NCBI GenBank assembly: GCA_021732415.1 | Contig: JAKFVC010000011.1 | Span: 1 to 49,162, forward strand | Direction of reading: 5' to 3' | DNA: 49,162 bases | Origin: Planctomycetaceae bacterium | Lineage (GTDB): Bacteria > Planctomycetota > Planctomycetia > Planctomycetales > Planctomycetaceae | Part shown: piece by piece, positions 3,928 to 49,020 of the stretch | How positions within the stretch are numbered: the stretch's first letter is position 1 | How the letters are laid out: each line of letters opens with the position of its first letter | Notes under the pieces: generated by a model | The model's input: the letters and a program-made list of their open reading frames with translations, nothing else | Database searches by the model: none | Told to the model about the DNA's origin: nothing | Program-made: the position numbers and the translations under genes

Positions 3928-4255
3928 TAAACAACTCCGGAAGCCCCGGACCGAAAAAGTCGGCACAGTTTGCCATGAGGTCAAACCGTACTGTCACGTA
4001 CGTTGAAGCTGGATCGGCGATTTGAGCATTCCTGCCGCAAGCAAGTTTCCGCCTAGCACATATCGAGAACAATATGCACGCCAAGCATCGCCGGTAGGAC
4101 CTGCACGATTGGTGGAATCCATTCCGGGTTGCGGCGGACGAAAGGACTTCCATCCGCAGTAGATACGTCTCTTATTATAGGGGTCCCAAAAAACGGGTGT
4201 CAATCGGCGAGATCGCATTCGGCGCAGAGTCGGCAAGTTTTACCAGCACCGCACC

Positions 4256-4488
4256 GTGGGACGGGTCTCCAGGCCCGTCCGTCCAGCAGCACTGCCAGAG
4301 CAACCGTTGTAACCGAACGACTGGTCCGTATTTCAACGCTCCAAAACTTGGCATTTCTTCGTGCCCTTCGTGACCTTCTGTTCAAAACCGATTGAGATTG
4401 GAACAGAAGGTCACAAAGGACACGAAGGTGTTCAAGCCATTAAGACGGCAAATACGCGGGGACGGACGGGCCTGGAGACCCGTCCCAC
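4256..4488. repeat. Nested palindromes: outer GGACGGG-element pair around a second hairpin family
   Basis: Outer arms 4256-4284 and 4460-4488 are exact 29-base inverted copies of an element with core GGACGGGTCTCCAGGCCCG, which is itself a 7-base stem-loop. Inside lies a different palindrome, 4357-4383 against 4401-4427 (arm begins CTTCGTGCCCTTCGTGACC), with two mismatches in 27. The composite fills the gap between divergent genes starting at 3927 and 4628, so it lies upstream of both rather than at their ends. The rest of 3928-4627 holds no convincing coding sequence. Confidence 0.88.
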
Positions 4489-4612
4489 GATGCGACACAA
4501 TCTCTTTAAAAACAGAGGTTACAGCGCATTCCAAGCGTGTCTATGGCATTCGCAGTCGGTCTGCTAACATCTCGAACCGTTTCAGGACAGCTGCGTCTTG
4601 CTGATCACGGCC

Positions 4613-5171: not shown

Positions 5172-6155
5172 ATGTCCAAAGTGCTGATTGCTCCCGCTGC
5201 GTTCTTCCGCGTCCCGGGCCCGTATGTCAGGTTGTTGCAGGAGGCGGGCCTCGAAGTTGTCTACCCGCCCGCGGCCGATCCGCGGACTGAAGCCGACACG
5301 TTGTCCTGCCTGCAGGGGGTCTCGGCCATCATCGCCGGGGGCGAGTTTCTCAACGAGAAATTGCTAGGCCAGCTTCCCGATCTGCGGGTCATCGCCCGTG
5401 CGGGAGTCGGCTACGACCGCGTCGACATTCCGGCCGCCACCAAGCGCAACATTGCCGTCACGATTACTCCGAATGCCAATCACGAAAGCGTGGCCGAACA
5501 TGCGCTGGGCCTGTTGCTGGCCCTCTCCCGCAACATCGTCGGGCATCATCAGGATGTTTTGGACGGAGACTGGTCACGTCGCCCCATGGTTCCCTTGCGA
5601 GGCATGACGCTGGGACTGGTGGGACTCGGTCGAATCGGGCGCAGCGTGGCCGCCCGAGCCCAAGCGTTTCGGCTCCGCGTGATTGCTCATGATCAGTTTG
5701 TCGACCCGGAACTGGCGAAGCGGTTGAACGTGGAACTGGTCGATTTGCCGACTCTGCTGGCCCAGTCGGACTATGTCAGCCTGCACGCCCCCATGACGGA
5801 ATCGACCAGCGGCCTCATCAACCGCAAGACCTTGGCGCAGATGAAGCCGGGCAGCTTCCTCATCAATACCTCCCGGGGCGGCCTGGTGGTCGAAGAGGAC
5901 CTGGCCGCCGCATTGCAGTCTGGTCATCTGGCCGGAGCGGCTCTGGACGTGTTCGACGTCGAACCGACACCAGTCTCCAACCCACTGTTAAAATCGCCCA
6001 ATCTGATCCTGACGCCCCATCTGGCGAGCGGCGATTATCAATCGATGGAGGACATGGGAACCGAATCAGCCACCAATATCATCGCCCTCTACCAGGGCGG
6101 CTGGCCGGAAGGCGCGGTCGTCAACGCACAGATCCGCCCGACGTTCCGCTGGTAG
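5172..6155 (+). CDS. D-isomer-specific 2-hydroxyacid dehydrogenase (phosphoglycerate dehydrogenase-like, short form)
   Basis: 327 residues. The NAD-binding motif GLGRIG is at 151-156, within MTLGLVGLGRIGRSVAARA. The family signature RAGVGYDRVDIPAATKRNI is at about 76-94. The catalytic triad can be placed: Arg235 in NTSRGG, Glu264 in DVFDVEP and His283 in TPHLAS. The family reduces 2-keto acids to D-2-hydroxy acids, or the reverse, with NAD(P)H. There is no C-terminal ACT domain, so this is not the long, serine-regulated SerA form. The substrate could be 3-phosphoglycerate, glyoxylate or hydroxypyruvate and cannot be fixed from sequence. The protein is cytosolic. The Shine-Dalgarno before ATG 5172 is weak (GAGAG). 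Confidence 0.93.
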   Translation: MSKVLIAPAAFFRVPGPYVRLLQEAGLEVVYPPAADPRTEADTLSCLQGVSAIIAGGEFLNEKLLGQLPDLRVIARAGVGYDRVDIPAATKRNIAVTITPNANHESVAEHALGLLLALSRNIVGHHQDVLDGDWSRRPMVPLRGMTLGLVGLGRIGRSVAARAQAFRLRVIAHDQFVDPELAKRLNVELVDLPTLLAQSDYVSLHAPMTESTSGLINRKTLAQMKPGSFLINTSRGGLVVEEDLAAALQSGHLAGAALDVFDVEPTPVSNPLLKSPNLILTPHLASGDYQSMEDMGTESATNIIALYQGGWPEGAVVNAQIRPTFRW

Positions 6156-6163
6156 CTGTATTC

Positions 6164-6178
6164 GTGGGACGGGTCTCC
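6164..6178 (+). repeat. Truncated copy of the GGACGGG element
   Basis: GTGGGACGGGTCTCC matches the first half of the element at 4256 exactly and then diverges, as if one half were deleted or replaced. It begins 9 bases after the dehydrogenase stop. Confidence 0.7.
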
Positions 6179-6367
6179 ACGAGATCTGATCCATCCGTTG
6201 GATCAAAATCGGCGTAAGGTATAATGCCGGCCGTAGGATAACTGCGGCCGCAAGTTGATCCAGGACTTGTGGTTTCGACGCAAGTTCTGCTTTAATCTGG
6301 TTTTACATCGCGGATTTTGTCGGCCCGTCGCGACGAGTTCGAAACACGCAATTTGCAGGAATATGGC

Positions 6368-8479: not shown

Positions 8480-8507
8480 GTGGGACGGGTCTCCAGGCCC
8501 GTCCGTC
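8480..8507 (+). repeat. GGACGGG element, single copy
   Basis: This matches the 4256 element for 28 bases in the same orientation. It lies 31 bases after the lipoprotein stop, just before a different, longer palindrome. Confidence 0.85.
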
Positions 8508-8566
8508 AAATTCAATCAGGTGAGCCAGGGTCTGCCGCGCTCGGGGGAGGGCGTACGATTGCCGCC

Positions 8567-8785
8567 TGTAGCCTGACTCTCCAGAGTCGGGACTCCCGAG
8601 GAGGTACTCCGACTCGGCCACAAGTTCCCAGGCAAAACACACCCTGTTCACCAACTCGCCTGGTCCGACCACCTGACTCTCCACAGCCGGCCGAATTGGG
8701 CCGCATCTGGCGTCCAACCCTTTCAACTGGTGTCCGAGTCGGAGTACCTCCTCGGAGGGTCCCGACTCTGGAGAGTCAGGCTACA
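8567..8785. repeat. Long inverted repeat, about 51-bp arms
   Basis: Arms 8567-8617 and 8734-8785 are nearly perfect reverse complements, differing only by a small indel near the middle. The outer sequence, TGTAGCCTGACTCTCCAGAG, is shared with the palindromes at 35014 and 49029. The 116-base interior has no clear gene. The element lies between two rightward genes (8449 and 8915). The rest of 8450-8914 holds no coding sequence. Confidence 0.9.
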
Positions 8786-8914
8786 GTGTTTCTGCCCGCC
8801 CCTGCGCCGTCCATAAATTCTTGCAAACCCCGATTGACCGAATTTCTAAGTTCTGGCACACTCCTCACCGGGTAGGTCGGCAATTCAGGGGGGCCCATAC
8901 TTCAGGGAGGAAGT

Positions 8915-10238: not shown

Positions 10239-11030
10239 CTACTCTCTCGCAAAGTGATGCAAAAAGATCCCCGCCGCGATCGCCACATTCAGCGAATCAA
10301 CTCCATCCGCCATCTTAATTGTCAATTGTCTATCGCACTGCGCCACAAACTCCGGCGGCAGCCCATAACCCTCGCAACCTAACGCCAAGGCAAAGCGAGA
10401 CGTTCTCTCCGCTGTGATCAACCGCTCGGCCTGAGGGTTCAGCACGGTCGCCGCCGTCTCCACACCAGCCCGTTTCAATGTGGCCAACATTGCCGGCCAA
10501 TCATCCGTCTGAATCACCGGCAACCGAAACACGGTCCCCATCGAAACCCGTAGCACTCGCCGCGAATACGGGTCCGTCCCCTCATGACCGACGATGACTC
10601 CATTGACCCCAAACGCGGCACTGATCCGCAGGATCGTCCCGAGGTTCTCCGGGTCCTTAATGTCGGGACACAGCACCAAGGTTAAGGGTTCATCGAACGA
10701 CGGCCACAACGATTCGAACGTCGGATTGACCGGACGTCGGCCACAAGCCAGGACCCCGCGGTGAAACTGAAACCCGATCAACTGATCAACATCGCCAGCC
10801 CGCACAACATAAACCGGAACATCCGCTGGTACTCGAGGCAACAGCCGTTCGACATGCGATTCCGCAGCCAGAATCGACAGAGTCTCAAAGCGGCTATCGA
10901 GCAACCGTTCAACCAGCTTCTCCCCCTCAGCAATAAAGATCTGCTGCCAGCGCGTCTGGTTCGTCTGCTTGAGGTTCCGATAAACATCAAGCCGCGAGTC
11001 ATCCAGATCTGAGATGGAAAAGATGGGCAT
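10239..11030 (-). CDS. TrmH/SpoU-family RNA 2'-O-methyltransferase
   Basis: 263 residues. All three SPOUT motifs are present: motif 1 ENLGTILRISAAFGVNGVI (Asn129, Arg135), motif 2 LGCEGYGLP (217-225) and motif 3 KMADGVDSLNVAIAAGI (about 239-255). Together they form the trefoil knot that binds S-adenosylmethionine. The N-terminal segment (IFIAEGEKLVERLL) matches the substrate-binding domain of RlmB/TsnR-like members. The enzyme methylates ribose 2'-OH in rRNA or tRNA; the target nucleotide is not predictable. It is cytosolic. It is co-oriented with the PLP enzyme upstream but separated by 416 bases containing a large palindrome, so a separate promoter is likely. Confidence 0.92.
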   Translation of the reverse strand: MPIFSISDLDDSRLDVYRNLKQTNQTRWQQIFIAEGEKLVERLLDSRFETLSILAAESHVERLLPRVPADVPVYVVRAGDVDQLIGFQFHRGVLACGRRPVNPTFESLWPSFDEPLTLVLCPDIKDPENLGTILRISAAFGVNGVIVGHEGTDPYSRRVLRVSMGTVFRLPVIQTDDWPAMLATLKRAGVETAATVLNPQAERLITAERTSRFALALGCEGYGLPPEFVAQCDRQLTIKMADGVDSLNVAIAAGIFLHHFARE

Positions 11031-11139
11031 AGGAAAACGCTAAGGGACGGGTACGATATGATGAGATGGTTTGGATTTCCAAAGTTCGGTTTAGTCTGCA
11101 TCTTTTAATAGCAGTAAACGACCGCTGATTGAATGAATT

Positions 11140-11360
11140 CCCCGAAGGGGATATGCATCATAGCCCAGGGTTGCCCGCTCCTGCGGGCTACCCTGGGTAT
11201 CGAATCAACATCGAATTCTACCCTGAAAGGGTTGCGTCTTATGCCTTGAGATCCAACCGAAGACGGAACCCTTTCAAGGTACGACAACATCTTGGGATAC
11301 GCACCCAGGGTAGCTCGCTGAAGCGGGCAACCCTGGGCTAGATGCACAACCCCGTTGGGG
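11140..11360. repeat. Large nested palindrome, arms about 58 bp
   Basis: Outer arms 11140-11198 and 11303-11360 pair over most of their length, including AGCCCAGGGTTGCCCGCT and CTACCCTGGGT; they carry small embedded hairpins such as CCCCGAAGGGG. Inside is a second pair, 11220-11233 against 11267-11280 (ACCCTGAAAGGGTT). It occupies most of the gap between the leftward PLP enzyme (stop 11447) and the methyltransferase (start 11030). No coding sequence is credible in 11031-11446. Confidence 0.88.
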
Positions 11361-11446
11361 TATTTATTTAAAACAACACAATTCGTGCCTTCGCCATCCG
11401 GCTTACCTAGTTCTCACTTATTAGTTACATCCGACCACATGTCGAA

Positions 11447-12622
11447 TTACAACACATTCAACGCCGTCTGCAGCTCACGCTTCAAATCCGCCAGATCCTC
11501 CAACCCCACCGACAACCGCACCAACCCATCATTGATCCCCAAGCTCGCCCGCTCAGCCGCAGACATAAACTTGTGCGACGTCCCCGTCGGATATGACACC
11601 GTCGTCCGAGCATCCGCCAGCGTGGGCGAGAACGGAATCTCTTCCAGGGCTTTAAACAACTTCGCCACAGACTCACGACCGCCAGGCAATTCAAAGGACA
11701 ACATCCCGCCAAACCCCGCGGGTAACAGTCGAGTCGCCGCGGCATGCGTGGTATGTTCCGGCAAACTCGGATAAAAGACCCGTGCCACTTGCGGCAGAGT
11801 CCGCAGGTAATTCGCCAGCTCCTGCGCCGTTTGCGAGACCCGCGCCATACGCAGCGGCAGGGTCCTCAATCCGCGTGAAGCCAGCCAGCATTCCATGGGA
11901 TTGCTGTTCATCCCGAACAGGGCCATCATCTGCCGCACCTTGCGAATCGCCGAGTAGTTACCCGCGACAACTCCCAGCATCACGTCGCCATGCCCATTGA
12001 GATACTTCGACGCACTATGAAAGACCAGCTTCGCTCCCAGCTCTATCGGCCGCTGCAAGACGGGCGTCGCAAACGTGCTGTCAACCAGCAATGGGACCTC
12101 ACCGAGAGCCGCCACCAGAGCCGGGATGTCAGCCACTTCCATCAACGGATTCGAGATGTTTTCGACAATCGCCAGCTTGGTCCGCGGTGTCACCGCTTGT
12201 CCGAATGCTGCCGGATCAAGAGCATCGACGAACGTGACCTCCACCCCAAATTGCGACTGCAGCTGGTTCAACATCTGCCCCGTGCGGCCGTATAACACTT
12301 TCGCCGCGATGACATGGTCGCCCGTCTTCACATGAGCCAGCAGGACAGCCGTCATCGCCCCCATGCCCGACGCACAGGCCACCGCCGCTTCCGCCCCTTC
12401 GAGCCGCGCGACGTCCGCCGCGAAGGCTTCATGATTGGGATTACTGTCGCGCGTGTAGATGTACCCCGCGACGCGGCCACTGGCGATGTCGTCGAGCTGC
12501 TCGAGCCCATCGACATCGAAGGCGGTCGTCATATAGATGGGCGGATTGCTCGTCTGCGTCGCGAACTTGGGAACCCAACCACCACGAGCGCAAATCGTTT
12601 CACCAGAGAATTCCGTGTCCAT
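11447..12622 (-). CDS. Cys/Met-metabolism PLP-dependent enzyme (cystathionine gamma-synthase / gamma-lyase type)
   Basis: 391 residues, the usual family length. Recognisable elements are YTRDSNPNHEAFAADVARLE (about 56-75, PLP-phosphate and substrate contacts), ASGMGAMTAVL (about 84-94), DSTFATPVLQRP (Asp181, pyridine-nitrogen contact) and SASKYLNGHGDVMLG, whose Lys206 is the Schiff-base lysine. The C-terminal half has SLGINDGLVRLSVGLEDLAD, the family's carboxylate-binding end. The fold is shared by cystathionine gamma-synthase, O-acetylhomoserine sulfhydrylase, cystathionine gamma-lyase and methionine gamma-lyase, and I cannot choose between them. No other sulfur-amino-acid gene is nearby. 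The protein is cytosolic and normally tetrameric. Confidence 0.93.
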   Translation of the reverse strand: MDTEFSGETICARGGWVPKFATQTSNPPIYMTTAFDVDGLEQLDDIASGRVAGYIYTRDSNPNHEAFAADVARLEGAEAAVACASGMGAMTAVLLAHVKTGDHVIAAKVLYGRTGQMLNQLQSQFGVEVTFVDALDPAAFGQAVTPRTKLAIVENISNPLMEVADIPALVAALGEVPLLVDSTFATPVLQRPIELGAKLVFHSASKYLNGHGDVMLGVVAGNYSAIRKVRQMMALFGMNSNPMECWLASRGLRTLPLRMARVSQTAQELANYLRTLPQVARVFYPSLPEHTTHAAATRLLPAGFGGMLSFELPGGRESVAKLFKALEEIPFSPTLADARTTVSYPTGTSHKFMSAAERASLGINDGLVRLSVGLEDLADLKRELQTALNVL

Positions 12623-12668: not shown

Positions 12669-12860
12669 AGGCGAGCCGGGCGGCGTAAGCCCCCGGATTC
12701 TTCGTTCCTACTGTTTTCACGCTATTTTGGGGAACGAAGAAATTGAAACACAGAGGCACAGAGAACACAGAGTGTTGGCAATTCCTCTGTGTTCTCTGTG
12801 CCTCTGTGTTTCCAAAACTGAATTGAAAGAATCCAGGGGCCTACGCCGCCCGGCTCGCCT
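12669..12860. repeat. Two nested palindromes of unrelated sequence (34-bp outer, 28-bp inner arms)
   Basis: Outer arms 12669-12702 and 12827-12860 (beginning AGGCGAGCCGGGCGGCGTA) match as inverted copies with two mismatches in 34. Inner arms 12745-12772 and 12785-12812 (GAAACACAGAGGCACAGAG) match exactly over 28 bases with a 12-base loop. The element lies between the histidine kinase stop (12892) and the PLP enzyme start (12622), both leftward. Confidence 0.93.
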
Positions 12861-13701: not shown

Positions 13702-13792
13702 ATCTCACGCAAAGGCGCCAAGGCGCCAAGTTACGTTGCTCAACCGGGTAAAAACATGCTCTTCTTGGCGCCTTGGCGCCTTTGCGTGAGAT
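13702..13792. repeat. Perfect inverted repeat, 29-bp arms
   Basis: Arms 13702-13730 and 13764-13792 are exact reverse complements (ATCTCACGCAAAGGCGCCAA...). The arm itself contains the short repeat AAGGCGCC twice. It lies between the pnp terminator and the kinase start. Confidence 0.93.
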
Positions 13793-31813: not shown

Positions 31814-31898
31814 CGTCCACGTAGGATGGCCGCCCCGGCCGTCGAATTCTTTGCGGTCCAGAGCAGGGAAATTCCTGATCGCCCAAAGAGGATTTTTG

Positions 31899-31980
31899 CC
31901 ACAGAATGACACGGAAGAAACACAGACGTCAGAGGAAATCTTGCTTCCCAGTTCTGTGTTTCTTCTGTGTCATTCTGTGG
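31899..31980. repeat. Inverted repeat, 28-bp arms, between convergent genes
   Basis: Arms 31899-31926 (CCACAGAATGACACGGAAG...) and 31953-31980 differ at one position. The element lies between the LssY_C gene (stop 31813) and the leftward TPR-like gene (stop 32042). A short GTAGGATGGCCGCCCCGGCC stem-like sequence near 31821 is probably another dispersed element. Confidence 0.9.
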
Positions 31981-32041
31981 CCCAAAACTGTTCTTAATTG
32001 CTGCGAGTCTGCTCCGCGCCTGACTCGCAATCAACTGAGGA

Positions 32042-32743: not shown

Positions 32744-33259
32744 CGAACCCAGCCCTCTCAGTCAACCCTGTCAATGGGGTCCGCGCCGACGGTCGGCGCG
32801 CGACATCACCGGGCTGTTGAGAGAGCGTTTGTGGTCACCTGAAATCGCCTGGACGATTCGGTACCACCAAACTCAGGGAGAGATTTTTAACAAGCCTGAG
32901 TTCCCACCACGCGCTGAGAGACGCGTGACGGCAATGTTCGCAATGAACATGTCCGATTTATCCCAATTTAACGATTTTAACATTTATGTCAAGCGAAATG
33001 TCAAGAAGTATCGCATGGCGTCGTAGGACGGGTCTCCAGGCCCGTCCGAGTGCCGTAACATTCTGCTCCAAAAACCTTCATCTCCCGCGAACTTCGCAGA
33101 GCGCCGACTTGCCTTCACCAAAAGCGTGGGAGTAAAGAGACGTCGCTCTTTAAACTGCATCCTGGCGCTGCGCGAAGATCGCGAGGATTCTTGGATTGTG
33201 TTGCCAACTGTTACAGGCTCGGATGGGCCAGGAGACCCGTCGTACAATGACAAGATCGA
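32744..33259. other. Intergenic region with a degenerate GGACGGG-element pair
   Basis: No gene is supported. Inverted copies of the GGACGGG element lie at 33023-33050 and 33218-33245 (three mismatches in 28), enclosing about 167 bases of unrecognised sequence. 32744-33022 is somewhat A+T-richer toward its right end and otherwise featureless to me. Confidence 0.7.
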
Positions 33260-39899: not shown

Positions 39900-42800
39900 T
39901 TACGCTACTCGTGTCGCAAGTTCCTCAAAGAACGCCTTTAAGGCGGGGGTGATTTGTTCTATCGCGTCAAAGCGAATGCCCAGCATTTCTTGACCTTTGC
40001 GACCGACTGTGATCTCGCGTTCGCTGCCGAACTCAGCGATGCGTCCCAAGGCGACTTGACCCGCCGGTATGGTACAGTTGAGATCGATTCCTGCGCGACG
40101 CTTGGTGTTGAGAGTCACCCACCCGTTCTCCGCTCCGGTGGGCCGCACTGCCACGGTTTGCTGACCCGTCCAATCGACAGTGGCCCCCGGCGCTGCGGCC
40201 AGCAGAGAATCGACCAGACCTTCCAGGACGGCCGGATCCCAGGCGACACGCTGCCCGGTTGGAAATCCCTTGCGAGACAGATGCCACTTCTTCCCCAAGA
40301 CCTTCCACGGCATCAGATCTTCCAGATTGCCGGATGTCTGGCCGAGATATTTCTGAAACGCCTGTTGGGCCTCCTTCAAAAACTTCTTGAAACCGGCCGT
40401 ATCGATTTCCCGCTCGTAATGGAGCATGATCGACACTTCCTGCCAGGGGCCCTTGCGGTTGGCCACCTTCACCCGATCGCCACGGTTATAAACCTGGATC
40501 TCATCCAGTTCGTTGAAGTCTTTCAACTGCAGTTGCGCGGCCAGAAGCTCCTGTTTGAACGTCCCGCGCGGTACGTGGAAATTCAGCTTCAACAGCCATT
40601 CTTCGCCGGTCAATGCGTGCAGGAACCAGCCCTCTTTGGCACTCTTCGCTGCCACTTCGACGATGCTGCGCGAATTCCAATTCGTCGGTGCAAAATTGCC
40701 AGATGCCTCCAAGGTATCAACCACGGTGGAGAGAATGGCCGCCTCCCAGCGGGCCGCCTTGCCGTTATGGCCGATCCGCTGATTCAGATGCCAGTTACGC
40801 CCATCGGTCTCCCATGGCATCTTGGCGCTCTCGCCGACTTGCTTCAGATCAACGTCACCCGCGCGCTTGGCGGCCGCCTGTTTGCGGTCGAAGATCTCAC
40901 GCTCACCCCGTTTGCCGTCGGCGAGAATCGGCCCCAGCATTTCACCCGTGTAAGAGCGTTTGCGGGACGCATTTGCCGTCGCGCTCTTGGTACCCTTCGC
41001 CTTGCCTGTACCGGAAGACGTTTCTCCTGCCGAGTACGCGACCAGATCCTCGGGAGTCCCCTCCACAACAATCCAGCCACCTCCGTGCCCCGCTTCCGGC
41101 CCCATGTCCACAATCCAGTCAGCGGTCTTGATCACATCGAGATTGTGTTCGATGACGACCACCGTATTCCCCAGCGCGACCAGACTGTCGAGCACCTTCA
41201 GCAACTTGCGAATATCGTCGAAGTGCAGGCCCGTCGTCGGTTCATCCAGGATGTAAAGCGTCTTGCCCGTCTGCGGCCGAGCCAGCTCCGCGGCCAGCTT
41301 CACACGTTGCGCTTCTCCCCCCGAGAGAGTCGGAGCCGACTGCCCAAGCGTGAGATAATCCAACCCAATCGCACACAACGTGGCGAGCGGTGCGCGGATC
41401 TTCGGAATATTGTCGAAGAGTTCCAGCGCCTGCCCGATCGACATGTTGAGCACATCGGCAATCGACCGGCCGCGGTAGGTCACCGCCAGCGTTTCGGCGT
41501 TGTAGCGCCGGCCTTTGCAGACTTCGCACTCGACCCAGACATCGGGCAGAAAATGCATTTCGATGCACTTCTGGCCGTTCCCTTCGCAGCCTTCGCAACG
41601 TCCCCCCGCCCGGTTGAAACTGAACCGCGCCGGACGATATCCCCGGACCTTGGCTTCGGGCAGATGAGCAAACAACTCGCGGATCTGATCGAAAACGCCG
41701 GTGTAAGTGGCGGGATTCGAGGCGGGAGTACTGCCCAGCGGTTGCTGATCAACCTGGATGATCTTGTTGACTTGCTCCAAGCCCACAATTTCTTCAAACG
41801 GTCCCGCTTGTTCCTGGGCTCGATGAAGTCGTCGAGCTACCGCTTTGGCCAGGGTTTCTTCAATGAGCGAACTCTTGCCGGATCCCGAGACTCCAGTAAT
41901 CACCGTAAAGGTTCCCAGCGGAATGCGCAGGTCGACATCACGCAGATTGTGCATGCGGGCGCCGAGCAATTCCAGCCAGCCACCGCCGGGCGTCTGCTGC
42001 ATCGTGGGCGTGTCGAGCAACCGCCCCTCTTTGCGTTTCGCCGTGGATTTCGACGTCATCCGCCGCGGTTCGGGGATGGGAATTTCCTCACGGCCCGACA
42101 GATACTTGCCAGTTAGCGAAGCATCCATCTTCATCAGTTGCTTGGGAGTCCCCGACCCCACCACATTGCCGCCGAACCGGCCGGCACCTGGTCCGAAGTC
42201 ATACAGACGGTCGGCTTCAGCAATGACCTCGCGATCGTGTTCGACCAGGATCAGCGTATTGCCAAGTTCCTTCAGTTGCTTCAACGACTGTAGCAATCGG
42301 GCGTTGTCTCGAGGATGCAGGCCGATGGTCGGTTCATCCAGCACATACAGCACCCCAGTCAACGCACGGCCGATCTGCCCGGCAAGTCGAATTCGCTGAC
42401 TCTCACCACCCGACAGCGTGGGCAGAGGGCGGGACAACGTGAGGTATTCCAAACCCACATCGACCAGGAACGACAGACGTCCGACGACTTCCTGCAGCAA
42501 ATCTCCGGCGACCCGCTTGTCGGCGGCTTTGAACTTCAGACCCTTGAAGAAGAGGTGACTTTCACCCAGCGGCAGTTCGCTCAGTTCTTGCAGCGTGCGG
42601 CCGTTGAACCGCACGGCTCCCGCATCGTCTCGCAGACGGCTGCCGTGGCACGTTGTGCAGGCCACTTCGCCCTGCAGATCACTCAGCCGTTGCCGATAGA
42701 CGAACGAGACGCGGGAGGCCTCTTCCAGGGCAGGATACAGTCCCTTGTACTGGAACTTGATCTGGCTGTTGGCGGCAATCGGAATCCATTTTTCTCCCGT

Positions 42801-45800
42801 GCCGTAGAAAATGATCCGCTGCTGCGGTGCCGACAGCTTGGAAAACGGCGTGTCGACCGTAAAGTGATGCAGATCGGCAATCGCCTTCAGCATCTTAAAC
42901 AGCATCGAACCCCGTTCGATCTTCGGCAACGTATCGATCGCCCCATCCAGAATGGATTTGCGAGGATCGGCAATGATGTGGGCCAGGTCCGTCCCCAGTT
43001 GCATTCCCAGCCCCTCACACGCGGGGCACCAGCCCAGCGGCGAATTGAACGAGAAGTGATGGGGAGTCAGTTCCTCAAAGCTGCGACCGCACTGTTCGCA
43101 GGCAAAATGCAGGCTGAAGCGATCCTCACGCCACTGCGTTTCCGGCTGGTCTTCCTGAATATGAGCCACCCGCAAGACACCCTGGCCCAGATCCAACGCC
43201 GATTCCACAGAATCCGCCAACCGTCCCCGCTGCCGAGCATCCAGCGTCACGCGATCGACGACAATATCGACGATGTGCTTCCGCCGCCGATCCATCTCGG
43301 GGACGTCTTCCAGACGATAGGTTTCCCCATTGATCCGAACACGCGAGTAGCCCTGTTCCTTCAGCCGCTGCCAGAGTTGATCGTACGACGCGCCAACTGC
43401 GACTTCCTGCGGAGCCAGCAACAGCAATTTAGTTCCCGCCGGCCAAGCCAGCAACTTGTCGATCACTTCGTCGGTGGTTTGCGTCTGGACCGGAATATCA
43501 CACGCCGGACAGTACGGCTGCCCCAGCCGGGCGAACAGAATACGCAAATAATCGTGAATCTCGGTCACCGTGCCCACGGTCGACCGCGGCGAATGTCCGA
43601 CCGTCTTTTGTTCAATCGCGATGGCCGGTGAAAGTCCACTAATATGTTCGAGCTTCGGCTTGGGCATTTGTCCGAGGAACTGCCGCGCGTAGGATGACAG
43701 CGATTCGACATAGCGACGCTGTCCCTCGGCATACAGCGTATCCATCGCCAGGGAACTCTTACCGCTTCCACTCGGACCGCAGAAGACGTTCATCTCACCG
43801 CGCGGGATCTCGATATTGATATGTTGCAGATTGTGCTGGGCTGCACCTCGCACAACGATCTTGCCGGGATCCAGTTCCAGACGATCCTTCGGTGCCGCGA
43901 GGACGTCGGCTTTCCGTTTCGATTTGCCGGGCCAAAAGATTTCTGCCAAGGCCCGCCCGGTATAAGAATCGGGATTCCGAGCAATATCCTCGGGCGTACC
44001 GGTCGCGACAACCAGGCCGCCCCCTGAGCCCCCTTCCGGACCCATGTCGATGACCCAGTCGGCCGTCTTGATGACATCCAGGTTGTGCTCGACAACCAGG
44101 ACCGTGTTCCCATCATTCACAAACCCGTGCAACACTTCCAGCAATTTCTTAATGTCGACAAAGTGCAGTCCGGTCGTCGGTTCATCCAACAGATAGATCG
44201 TGCCGCCTGTCGAGCGTTTTCCCAGCTCACGAGCGAGTTTAATCCGCTGGGCTTCACCGCCCGACAATGTCGGCGATGGCTGTCCAAGCTTGAGATAGTC
44301 GAGTCCCACTGCCACCAGAGTCTGCAGCAGATGATGGATCTTAGGGACGTTCTCAAAGTGCTGGATCGCCTGCTGGATGTCCATATCCAGGACTTCCGCG
44401 ATATTCTTCCCCTTAAAGCGGACATCGAGTGTTTCGTGATTAAATCGTTGGCCTTCGCAGACCGGGCACGTCACCCAGATGTCGGCGAGAAAATCCATTT
44501 CGAGCTTGTTGGAGCCGTGGCCTTCACAAGCTTCACAACGCCCACCCGCGACGTTGAAACTAAAACGTCCGGGTTCGTAGGCACGCAGTTGCGAGTCAGG
44601 CAGCGAGGCATACAGATCACGGATCAAATCGAACAGCTTAACGTAGGTCGCCGGGTTTGACCGTGGCGTACGACCAATCGGCGACTGGTCGATGTCAATG
44701 GCCTTGTCGAGGTAAATCAGCCCCTCAACTTTAGAATGCAGTCCCGGTTGTCCCAAGCCCTTATTGAGGTCTCGATTGAGCGTCTCCCATAGGATATCGT
44801 TCACTAGAGAACTCTTGCCCGAACCGCTGACTCCAGTCACGCAAATAAACATTCCCAGCGGGAATTCGACATCAACATTCCGCAGGTTGTTGTGACGCGC
44901 TCCGAGGATCTTGAGAGAGTTGTCACCCCGTGGACGTCGTTCGGCCGGAACAGCGATCTGATCTTTGCCCGAGAGGAAACGGCCAGTCGCGCTGCGGGGC
45001 GCCCGCTTGATGTCTTCCAGCTTCCCTTCCGCGACCACTTCACCGCCGCGAACACCGGGACCCGGGCCGAAGTCGATGACGTGGTCGGCCGCGCGGATCG
45101 TCTCTTCATCATGCTCGACGACGATCACCGTGTTGCCGAGATCACGCAGATCAAGGAGGCTTTGCAGGAGCCGCGTGTTGTCGCGCGGATGGAGGCCGAT
45201 CGACGGTTCATCGAGAATATAGACGACGCCTACCAGGCCGCATCCAATCTGTCCGGCGAGTCGAATGCGCTGCGTTTCGCCGCCGGACAATGTCGGTGCC
45301 GTTCGATCGAGAGTCAGGTAATTCAGTCCGCAACGGAGCAGAAATCCCAGGCGTCCGCGGATTTCTTTGAGGATCTCTTCAGCGATGAAGAGCCCGGTGG
45401 CATCAAGATTGAGCGATTGAAAGAACTCGGCGGCTTCGGCGATGCTGAGGGCGCAGACTTCAGTCAGGCTGAGGCTGTGCTTGCGTTCGGCTGACACGAC
45501 CACCGGTGCGGTCTTTTTGGTCCCGCGCCGTTTTGAATTGGTGGCCGACTGACTGATGGTGCCGTAGGGGGCGGTGATCTTCGACCATTCGGGGTTGCCG
45601 GTGGTGACGCGGACGCTGCGGGCTTGTCGGTTGAGGCGCGTCCCTTCGCAGGCACGACAATGGACAACTTGCATGTATTTTTCAAGTTGCCGTCGCCGCA
45701 TCGGGTTCTTGGCTTTGCGGTAGGCATCCATCAACTCGGGAAAATAGCCCTCGTACTTCGCGCCGTGCTTCCAGGTGCCGCCGGAATGCTTCCAGGAATA

Positions 45801-46982
45801 TGTGACGTGGCGGTCGCCCATGCCGTACAGAAACTGCTTGCGGGCGGCCTCGGGAAGTTCATTCCACGGCGTCGTCAGCAGCGTGTCGGGGTCCAGGCCA
45901 TGATCGGCTTCGAGGGCTTTGGCGACTCCCACGTAAATATGCTTCTTCCAGCGGCCCAGACTGCGGATAGGGCCCAGCAAGATGATCGCCCCTTGCTGCA
46001 GTGATTTGGTTTCATCGGGAATCAGCAGCGATTGGTCGAAATCGTGCCGAATGCCCAAACCTTGGCAGTCGGTACACATGCCCTGCGGGCTGTTGAAGCT
46101 GAAGAGCTGCGGGCTGGGTGGTTCGTAGCTGATGCCGCAATGGGTGCAGGCATAGTGCGTGCTGTAGAGAGTTTCCGTGGTGGTCGGGGCAGGAGGTTGC
46201 TCAACGGAGTTCTTCTTGCCGCGGCCTTTGGCGGGTGCTTCGGTCGGAGCAGTGGCGTCTCCTTCCTGGCTGATGATGACACTGCCGCCTGACAGTCGGA
46301 CCGCGTTTTCAATGGCTTCAGCGAGACGCGTGCGGCTGCCGGAGCCAGCTGACAGGCGGTCGACGACGACCTCAATGTTATGCCGCATCTGTCGATCGAG
46401 CTGCAGATTTTCCGTCAGATGGACGATCTCGCCGTTGACGCGGGCTCGCAAAAACCCTTGCTTCAACAGATCTTCGAAGAGGTCGCGGTATTCGCCCTTC
46501 TGCCGGGACACGACCGGGGAGAGCACCATGAACCGCTGACCAGGGGGCAGCCGCGCGAGACTGTCCAGGATTTGATCGACAGTCTGCGCTGTGATCGGGC
46601 GATCACACTTCGGGCAACAGCCCTGGCCGACTCGGGCGAAGAGGACGCGCAAGTAATCGTAGATTTCGGTGATCGTGCCGACAGTGCTGCGCGGATTGCG
46701 GCCGCTCGATTTCTGCTGGATCGAAATCGACGGGGCCAGGCCGGTGATCGAATCGACTTCGGGCTTGGGCATCTGGCCGAGGAACTGCCGGGCGTAGCTC
46801 GACAGTGATTCGACGTACCGCCGCTGCCCTTCAGCATAGAGCGTGTCAAATGCCAGGGAACTCTTGCCGGAGCCGCTGACGCCGGTCATCACAATGAGTT
46901 TGTTGCGAGGCAGCGTGAGGCTGACATCTCGCAGGTTGTGTTCGCGCGCACCGCGAATCACGATATCGGACAACTGAGACAT
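39900..46982 (-). CDS. uvrA: Double-length excinuclease subunit: two UvrA units in tandem plus a duplicated C-terminal domain
   Basis: 2360 residues; a normal UvrA has about 940 and two ATPase sites, whereas this has four. Unit 1 (about 1-1015): Walker A GVSGSGKS at 34-41 and 717-724, signature LSGGE at 565 and 906, Walker [13 protein letters not shown] near 588 and [10 protein letters not shown] near 931, Cys pairs CTHC 279/CTDC 303 and CEAC 816/CPVC 839. Unit 2 (about 1035-2020): Walker A GPSGSGKS at 1069-1076 and GVSGSGKS at 1697-1704, LSGGE at 1523 and 1886, [10 protein letters not shown] near 1548 and LDEPTTGLH near 1912, Cys pairs 1295/1319 and 1796/1819. All four sites look intact. Unit 1 has an extra insert near 453-505. 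Residues 2055-2360 form two copies of an added domain ([24 protein letters not shown]). UvrA finds bulky DNA lesions and loads UvrB; normally it is a dimer, so this chain could be a covalent dimer. Confidence 0.95.
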
Positions 46983-47127
46983 AGTCGGCTCGTGGATGAA
47001 CCCGGAGCATCGGTCGAACTTGATTCATCAAGCCTGACGGACGTCGCGGTCGGTTGGCACAGGGACGAGCAGAATTTTAGACACCGACTGACCCAGCGAC
47101 CACTGAGCACGCGTAGGAAAGGGATTC

Positions 47128-47445
47128 GTAGGACGGGTCCCAGGCCCGTCCGAGCCCCGTGGCGGACGCTGCCAGCGTCCGTGTACCCGCCGCGCTCAAT
47201 GAAAAGACTTCCTACAAACTCAACTGCCAGCGGAATCGAAAATCGTTCCTTCGTGTCCTTTGTGATCTTCTGTTTCAAATCTTTTTAACAGAAGGCCACA
47301 AAGGACACGAAGAAGTTGGAAGTTTCCAAGCGTTAGTTGGAAGACTTCTCTTATCGACTAGATAAGTCTTGGTCCAAGGAAGAATTCGCCGACGCTGGCA
47401 GCGTCGGCCACGTGGTGGACGGACGGGCCTGGAGACCCGTCCCAC
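47128..47445. repeat. Triple-nested palindromes upstream of uvrA
   Basis: Outer pair: GGACGGG elements 47128-47154 and 47417-47445 in inverted orientation. Next inside, a GCTGCCAGCGTC motif near 47169 faces GACGCTGGCAGCGTC near 47391. Innermost: arms 47249-47274 and 47287-47312 (CTTCGTGTCCTTTGTGATC...), two mismatches in 26, the same family as 4357 and 48174. The arrangement repeats that at 4256-4488. No gene is supported in 46983-47458. Confidence 0.88.
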
Positions 47446-47458
47446 GATACGCTTCAGG

Positions 47459-48173: not shown

Positions 48174-48240
48174 CTTTGTGCCCTTTGTGACCTTCTGTTC
48201 AAAACTCTGATTGGAACAGAAGGTCACAAAGGACACGAAG
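48174..48240. repeat. Inverted repeat, 27-bp arms (CTTTGTGCCCTTTGTGACC family)
   Basis: Arms 48174-48200 and 48214-48240 pair with two mismatches. Same family as 4357-4427 and 47249-47312. It lies between the divergent zinc-ribbon and dedA-type genes. The rest of 47969-48323 shows no gene. Confidence 0.9.
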
Positions 48241-48991: not shown

Positions 48992-49020
48992 GTGGGACGG
49001 GTCTCCAGGCCCGTCCGTCC
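48992..49020 (+). repeat. GGACGGG element, single full copy
   Basis: Identical over 29 bases to the 4256 copy. It lies 11 bases after the DedA stop codon. Confidence 0.9.

Follow-up and report, generated by a model that had tools for sequence, protein, structure and literature searches.

The window analyzed here is 49,162 bp long and constitutes the entire contig C49 of a Planctomycetaceae genome (G000; 9.87 Mb in 350 contigs). Between positions 47128 and 47445, three inverted repeats lie one inside another, with the following features.

47128..47152, + strand, left outer REP (A1 subtype, GTAG foot plus hairpin); sequence; inverted-repeat arm (pairs I3/I4); the sister species G003 has a counterpart at this position
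47420..47450, - strand, right outer REP (A2 subtype, GTGG foot); arm shared with the RAYT element of contig C40
47155..47179, + strand, left arm of the middle GCTGCCAGCGTC pair; inverted-repeat search
47391..47415, - strand, right arm of the middle GCTGCCAGCGTC pair; inverted-repeat search
47249..47312, no strand, inner CTTCGTG hairpin; inverted-repeat search

All three layers were found by inverted-repeat search in the order given by the preliminary description (outer, middle, inner). The outer arms, which differ in subtype and foot, pair over 47119-47139/47434-47454 (81%) and 47140-47152/47420-47432 (100%), the middle arms match at 92%, and the arms of the inner hairpin (47249-47279/47282-47312) match at 87%. 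The + strand of 47128-47445 is predicted to fold as a single nested hairpin of -104.6 kcal/mol (z -15.2 against 100 shuffles). The inner hairpin lies 69 and 78 bp from the middle arms, a fairly even spacing, and the middle family, which has a median loop of 26 bp (range 7-615, 19 surveyed elements), has a loop of 211 bp here.

The same nesting had been claimed at 4256-4488, where the outermost and innermost layers are present but the middle GCTGCC pair is absent.

4250..4284, + strand, left outer REP (A2) of the second locus; inverted repeat, exact 22-mer
4460..4494, - strand, right outer REP (A2) of the second locus; inverted repeat, exact 22-mer
4357..4427, no strand, CTTCGTG hairpin within the second outer pair; inverted repeat

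These outer arms match at 97% and surround the hairpin arms (4357-4386/4398-4427) unevenly, at distances of 72 and 32 bp. The window contains five further sites of interest.

33016..33252, no strand, third outer pair, with 83% complementarity between its arms, enclosing CGCGAACTTCGC-type arms; a related nest in G003 carries an extra element
8483..8504, + strand, single outer REP, beside and not around another nest (8566-8786); sequence match
48995..49016, + strand, outer REP whose partner, if any, lies past the contig end; sequence match
11161..11340, no strand, nest of two fixed layers, whose arms match the ends of the IS200-like element L196 on C27
30856..30984, no strand, TGGGAGGGCGAGG nest of two fixed layers; no transposase was found to match it; missing from the aligned site in G003

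The TGGGAGGGCGAGG unit falls in the family with the most members in the survey described below (68 elements in the lumped family 0), and no matching Y1 gene was found among the 11 examined. Several abundant families consist of compact hairpins with an 8-9 nt repeat in their arms (CACAGAGG, CGCAAAGG, and CTTCGTG types), seen in the window at 12745-12812, 13702-13792, 31893-31986, and 48174-48240; they bound none of those 11 Y1 genes. Positions 39900-46982 (- strand) hold one 2360-aa open frame with matches to two UvrA interaction and two UvrA DNA-binding domains, suggesting a double-length UvrA-like protein.

The outer pair is a REP doublet: two REP hairpins of the RAYT type face outward on either side of variable DNA. 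At 3 mismatches or fewer, the outer repeat occurs in 584 copies in G000, 116 in G003, 9 in G002, 5 in G017, and 1 each in G029 and G033, with 0 copies in the remaining 53 of 59 genomes, same-genus G001 among them. The consensus over 84 outer ends, GTATCGTGGGACGGGTCTCCAGGCCCGTCCGTCCC, has a sharp inner boundary and an outer side that tapers over ~5 bases. At the unpaired foot, the one-base variant GTGG dominates over GTAG (96 and 13 of 111, together 109). As in GTAG-type REPs, the repeat is a 20- to 40-bp extragenic palindrome of high copy number, and as in REPINs, it forms inverted doublets (42 of 43 adjacent outer pairs within 600 bp face outward). The spacer is not uniform within the family as a REPIN's would be, ranging from 54 to 345 bp over 42 pairs, and the interiors outside their hairpins are mostly unrelated, with exceptions. 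The target-site duplication of classical MITEs was not seen, with no excess of direct flank matches at 9 offsets in 42 outer pairs. A recognized second family lies inside 33 of the 48 A-type pairs whose sequence was examined, most commonly CTTCGTG (14), and 10 of the 19 CTTCGTG hairpins sit within an A pair.

These boundaries bear on one proposed origin, namely, that template switching at a replicating hairpin lengthens the palindrome outward. The long predicted fold could indeed stall replication. Template switching would, however, copy unique neighboring bases into the arm, whereas the arms belong to dispersed families with fixed ends, the outer arms stop at the fixed family boundary, and the same families recur in different combinations. 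This origin, raised in the preliminary description, is unsupported, and we regard it as extremely improbable.

Inverted repeats were surveyed over 1.31 Mb, comprising contigs C1, C2, C4-C7, and C9 whole, most of C3, C8, and C10, and the window. Of 20 stretches mostly picked because they held matches, those on C1-C9 sit in near-whole contigs, and the others were excluded from the survey. The 419 raw inverted repeats (arms of at least 18 nt, span of at most 700), some of which were runs of N on C3 and were removed later, compare with 16 in one Markov shuffle and are therefore not due to chance. Once resolved, they gave 357 elements, grouped in 89 families; a home-made hexamer gene caller places 340 of the elements in intergenic DNA. 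Nests are of two kinds, fixed units, in which two given layers recur at constant spacing (the CGCCCCCGTTGGG unit, for instance, with 6 copies and 31-35 bp on either side) and variable nests, which involve the GGACGGG family and others and have loops of 40 to >400 bp.

Nesting is genome-wide and non-random. With outer loops of 40-465 bp and intergenic regions of at most 2500 bp, 21 other palindromes lie inside outer pairs (3236 bp) and 8 lie outside them in the same intergenic regions (13243 bp; expected inside share, 0.20; p=1.2e-9); 19 of the 33 outer pairs are filled. A stricter outer match (27 pairs) gave 19 inside and 0 within 250 bp outside, much of which is coding. All variable-loop families together gave 37 inside and 9 outside (p 1.6e-16), and the held-out contigs C11 and C12 yielded only 3 pairs with 1 inner element (p 0.14-0.21). 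A genome survey of nesting against random adjacency had been proposed in the preliminary description, and nesting is the commoner. A pair-based estimate (of 106 same-region pairs, 67 nested where 26.4 were expected; asymmetry with a median of 0.16) was set aside because fixed two-layer units of single elements account for many of its nests; 15 inner members had already been taken out, but family 0 within family 0 stayed.

Both kinds of element might simply share a safe pocket, landing where they are harmless, with short intergenic space making the nesting seem special. The intergenic position of 340 of the 357 elements agrees with this, as do orthologous gaps that often hold different palindromes in each species. 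The enrichment inside nevertheless persists when the comparison is confined to the same intergenic regions (21 versus 8 at an expected share of 0.20), although the outside space includes promoters and terminators, so part of the effect could be a safe pocket. As the explanation of nesting, it seems quite improbable.

The symmetric centring noted in the preliminary description was not confirmed as a rule. The nest at 47128 is fairly even, but that at 4256 is not, and the asymmetry, |L-R|/(L+R), of the 21 inner elements in outer pairs has a median of 0.46, indistinguishable from uniform (KS p 0.57). A recurring three-layer unit of even spacing supplies 3 of the 21. The CAGGYGAGCC family gave 0.50 (p 0.44, n=9), 7 nests of families 1, 3, and 7 were more central (0.07, p 0.03), and all 37 nested elements pooled gave 0.41 (p 0.09).

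Histories of individual nests were read mostly from one genome pair, G000 and G003 (87% complete, about 1050 contigs), which align mostly at 79-94% over long stretches; orthologue alignments of at least 250 bp and at least 76% were kept. Fifteen outer pairs have both flanks aligned; L049 13048, L050 13152, and window 33024, which lack two-flank synteny, were excluded, and window 47128 was counted apart. Nine of the 15 are absent in G003 (L034 11655, L034 14117, L043 1310, L047 13898, L049 1831, L049 15182, window 4257, L033 15203, and the L033 pair near 11030). In five of the nine an inner palindrome sits between the arms, and in each case its family is missing from the G003 site. Four pairs, along with their inner palindrome, are found in both species (L043 3457, L033 17795, L047 758, and L050 17352), and two are shared with another interior (L043 6326 and L047 16429). 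The three L033 loci were scored by eye. Script and eye disagreed at two loci: L043 3457 was re-read, and L047 16429, which has an extra base in a G003 arm, was called present by eye. In three shared pairs, the per-column alignment values are 0.76-0.89 outside and 0.33, 0.75, and 0.50 in the interiors (0.49 for random 80-mers); the interiors of L043 3457 and L033 17795 are well aligned. None of the 15 comparable loci has the outer pair and same spacer without the inner hairpin or the inner hairpin without the outer pair. Comparing homologous loci, which the preliminary description suggested doing in related strains to order the insertions, revealed in this sister species whole absence, retained nests, and different interiors but no intermediate stage. 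This pattern could in part be loss in G003; the direction of change appears best supported at L033 15203, which is absent in both G003 and G002.

Orthologous gaps often carry different palindrome families in each species, as if replacing one another, as at window 4243-4608, 11056-11449, and 47118-47454 (G003 and G002 counterparts L151, L155, L152, L154, L159, and L153). A reversed order occurs in G002 at L245, about 5810-6300, where the CCACGGATGAACACGG hairpin family is outermost and a TGGGAGGGCGAGG unit lies inside.

The outer pair seems to travel with whatever sits between its ends, so the nests appear to have been copied whole and not assembled through a series of precise insertions. Four composites on contig C4 have full-length relatives nearby. 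The interior of L043 1310, which G003 lacks, is related over its full length (85%) to that of L043 3457, which G003 shares, and most of L043 6326 is related in inverted orientation, the trio lying within about 5.3 kb. L034 14117, whose G003 site is empty, matches L033 17795 and L033 15203 (136 bp, inverted, 81%), and L033 15203 in turn matches a G003 composite (211 bp, 85%). In four copies the interior is missing at the G003 site: L043 1310, L034 14117, and L033 15203 are wholly absent there, and L043 6326 replaces another interior. Hops may be local. The copied interiors diverge by 15-19% and the arms are nearly identical, which implies that the arms are under selection or homogenized. Most interiors share no spacer with other interiors despite such arms, which simple recent unit copying does not predict.

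Two G003 loci show that insertion into a hairpin tip is one real route to a new layer. In one, an element with 18-bp terminal repeats sits in the loop of an outer-family REP, with a duplication of 8-10 bp, depending on the ends drawn; it looks like a duplication-making transposon of another kind. In the other, a palindrome occupies the tip of a GACTC..GAGTC REP. Both hairpins are whole in G000. Together with the 211-bp middle loop at 47128 (26 bp being usual), these cases fit sequential insertion, in which later palindromes home to the loop or tip of existing hairpins and each layer is younger than the one enclosing it. Against it stand the uniform positions inside outer pairs and the missing intermediate at the 15 comparable loci, from which tip insertion is apparently not the general route, and we consider sequential insertion unlikely to explain the nests as a whole. 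The targeting of hairpin loops and tips proposed in the preliminary description is thus borne out in two instances but not generally. A search of G000 for split outer repeats (one mismatch per half) found 0 beside 106 intact; this is weak evidence because the search missed both known G003 split cases. Another 29 D-pattern split matches in G000 (14 shown) look like neighboring D repeats mistaken for halves and were set aside.

Elsewhere in the genome, a candidate transposase gene lies between the same arms. The RAYT (REP-associated tyrosine transposase) gene for P0001 on C40 is enclosed by 36-nt, 100% identical REP arms (L191 1931-1966 and 2723-2758) in the order arm, gene, arm, the arrangement of a REPtron. 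A second RAYT on C9 is 65% identical to it and has the sister REP arms GTGGGACGGGTCTCCGACCCGTC. Inverted repeats of at least 20 nt bound 15 of 20 RAYT-relative loci (the C40 locus included), compared with 3 of 400 random 670-bp G000 stretches. P0001 scores below curated cut-offs (NF047646, 59.7 of 80 bits; Y1_Tnp, 21.2 of 23), which leaves its activity in doubt; with NF047646, a different G000 protein, L198, reaches 106. The only close named RAYT relative is 51% identical and comes from a Pirellulaceae MAG. In the 87% complete G003 assembly, RAYT matches are more distant only (38-43%), despite the 116 outer repeats. No match to a decayed RAYT gene was found among 52 interiors, which are therefore not plain internal deletions.

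Flanking repeats were sought at 11 of the 13 Y1 matches in G000, excluding the second C1 copy and a doubtful C5 match. All but the C1 gene (10 of 11) are bounded by inverted repeats of at least 20 nt, and six (L190 and L193-L197) have two-layer ends whose arms match fixed units by eye. Similar ends occur elsewhere in the sequence searched, in counts that include the elements themselves. With NF033573 (IS200/IS605 transposase), L193, L194, L195, and L196 score >55 bits, and L197 (49.4) and L190 (44) fall below the cut-off. From these sequence matches, the best reading of several fixed concentric nests is that they are the double-palindromic ends of IS200-like elements that lack a transposase gene. 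The 270-aa Y1-like protein at L190 1641-2453 (- strand) has an HIH motif C-terminal to the Y1-profile stretch (residues 53-126), as though its domain were permuted or doubled.

We favor, at a probability of about 0.6, the reading that cargo-carrying REP doublets copied as units gave rise to the nested palindromes, with IS200-like ends behind several fixed nests. A RAYT, a relative of the single-strand HUH/Y1 transposases, would recognize both REPs and copy the intervening DNA of any kind. Any palindrome lying between the REPs would move with them, and distant loci would inherit their nested order by copying. Further layers would be added when an element occasionally inserts into a spacer or hairpin tip and perhaps when interiors are exchanged. 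Several fixed-spacing nests would have a separate cause, both layers being the double-palindromic ends of gene-less IS200-like elements. A further, tentative possibility is that REP doublets are hairpin-bounded single-strand composite transposons, in which one RAYT moves any DNA between outward REPs, resident doublets serve as docking sites with exchanged interiors, and nests form a fossil record of cargo exchange; the interior-exchange reading draws on the loci where the outer pair was kept and the inner part changed, which are few in number.

As G000 also shows, nesting of palindromes does not call for a special symmetric mechanism. REP spread is still called poorly understood (PMC8266576). 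G000 offers hundreds of outer repeats with distinguishable cargo and a RAYT gene between the same arms, and its sister species has sites that can be read as empty, filled, or re-filled; by comparing more strains, unit copying could be distinguished from tip insertion and from exchange of interiors. The titles and abstract openings of literature on nested or concentric palindromes and on REPIN/RAYT spacers, from which subscription journals are mostly absent, contain no earlier report of REP doublets around nested palindromes.

Several known systems resemble these nests in part. REPINs and BIMEs with their RAYT (TnpA-REP) in Pseudomonas and Escherichia coli are likewise inverted, high-copy, extragenic REP doublets with a matching REP-bounded RAYT gene (PMC3116915; PMC6006769). 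The Pseudomonas GI doublet has 71 bp between its two 16-mers (PMC3116915; PMC6006769); unlike those of the Pseudomonas and E. coli REPINs, the spacers here are long, very variable (54-345 bp, 42 pairs), and often occupied by other palindrome families. By description, the Y1 genes here also recall TIRtrons (PMC3733652) and the class 3 TnpA of Planctomycetes (PMC6006769), in which Y1 genes lie between inverted repeats, some double-palindromic, or between atypical structures that are likewise found in high copy. The two G003 insertions inside REPs recall insertion sequences that target REPs (PMC1525189), from which they differ in that the inserts are short, palindromic, and gene-less. Palindromes of different families are nested in GTAG-15 of A. 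variabilis, GTAG-23 of T. roseum, and CGTC-1 of H. neapolitanus as well (PMC3733652); there the REP dimer is innermost, whereas here the REP doublet is outermost, around several families.
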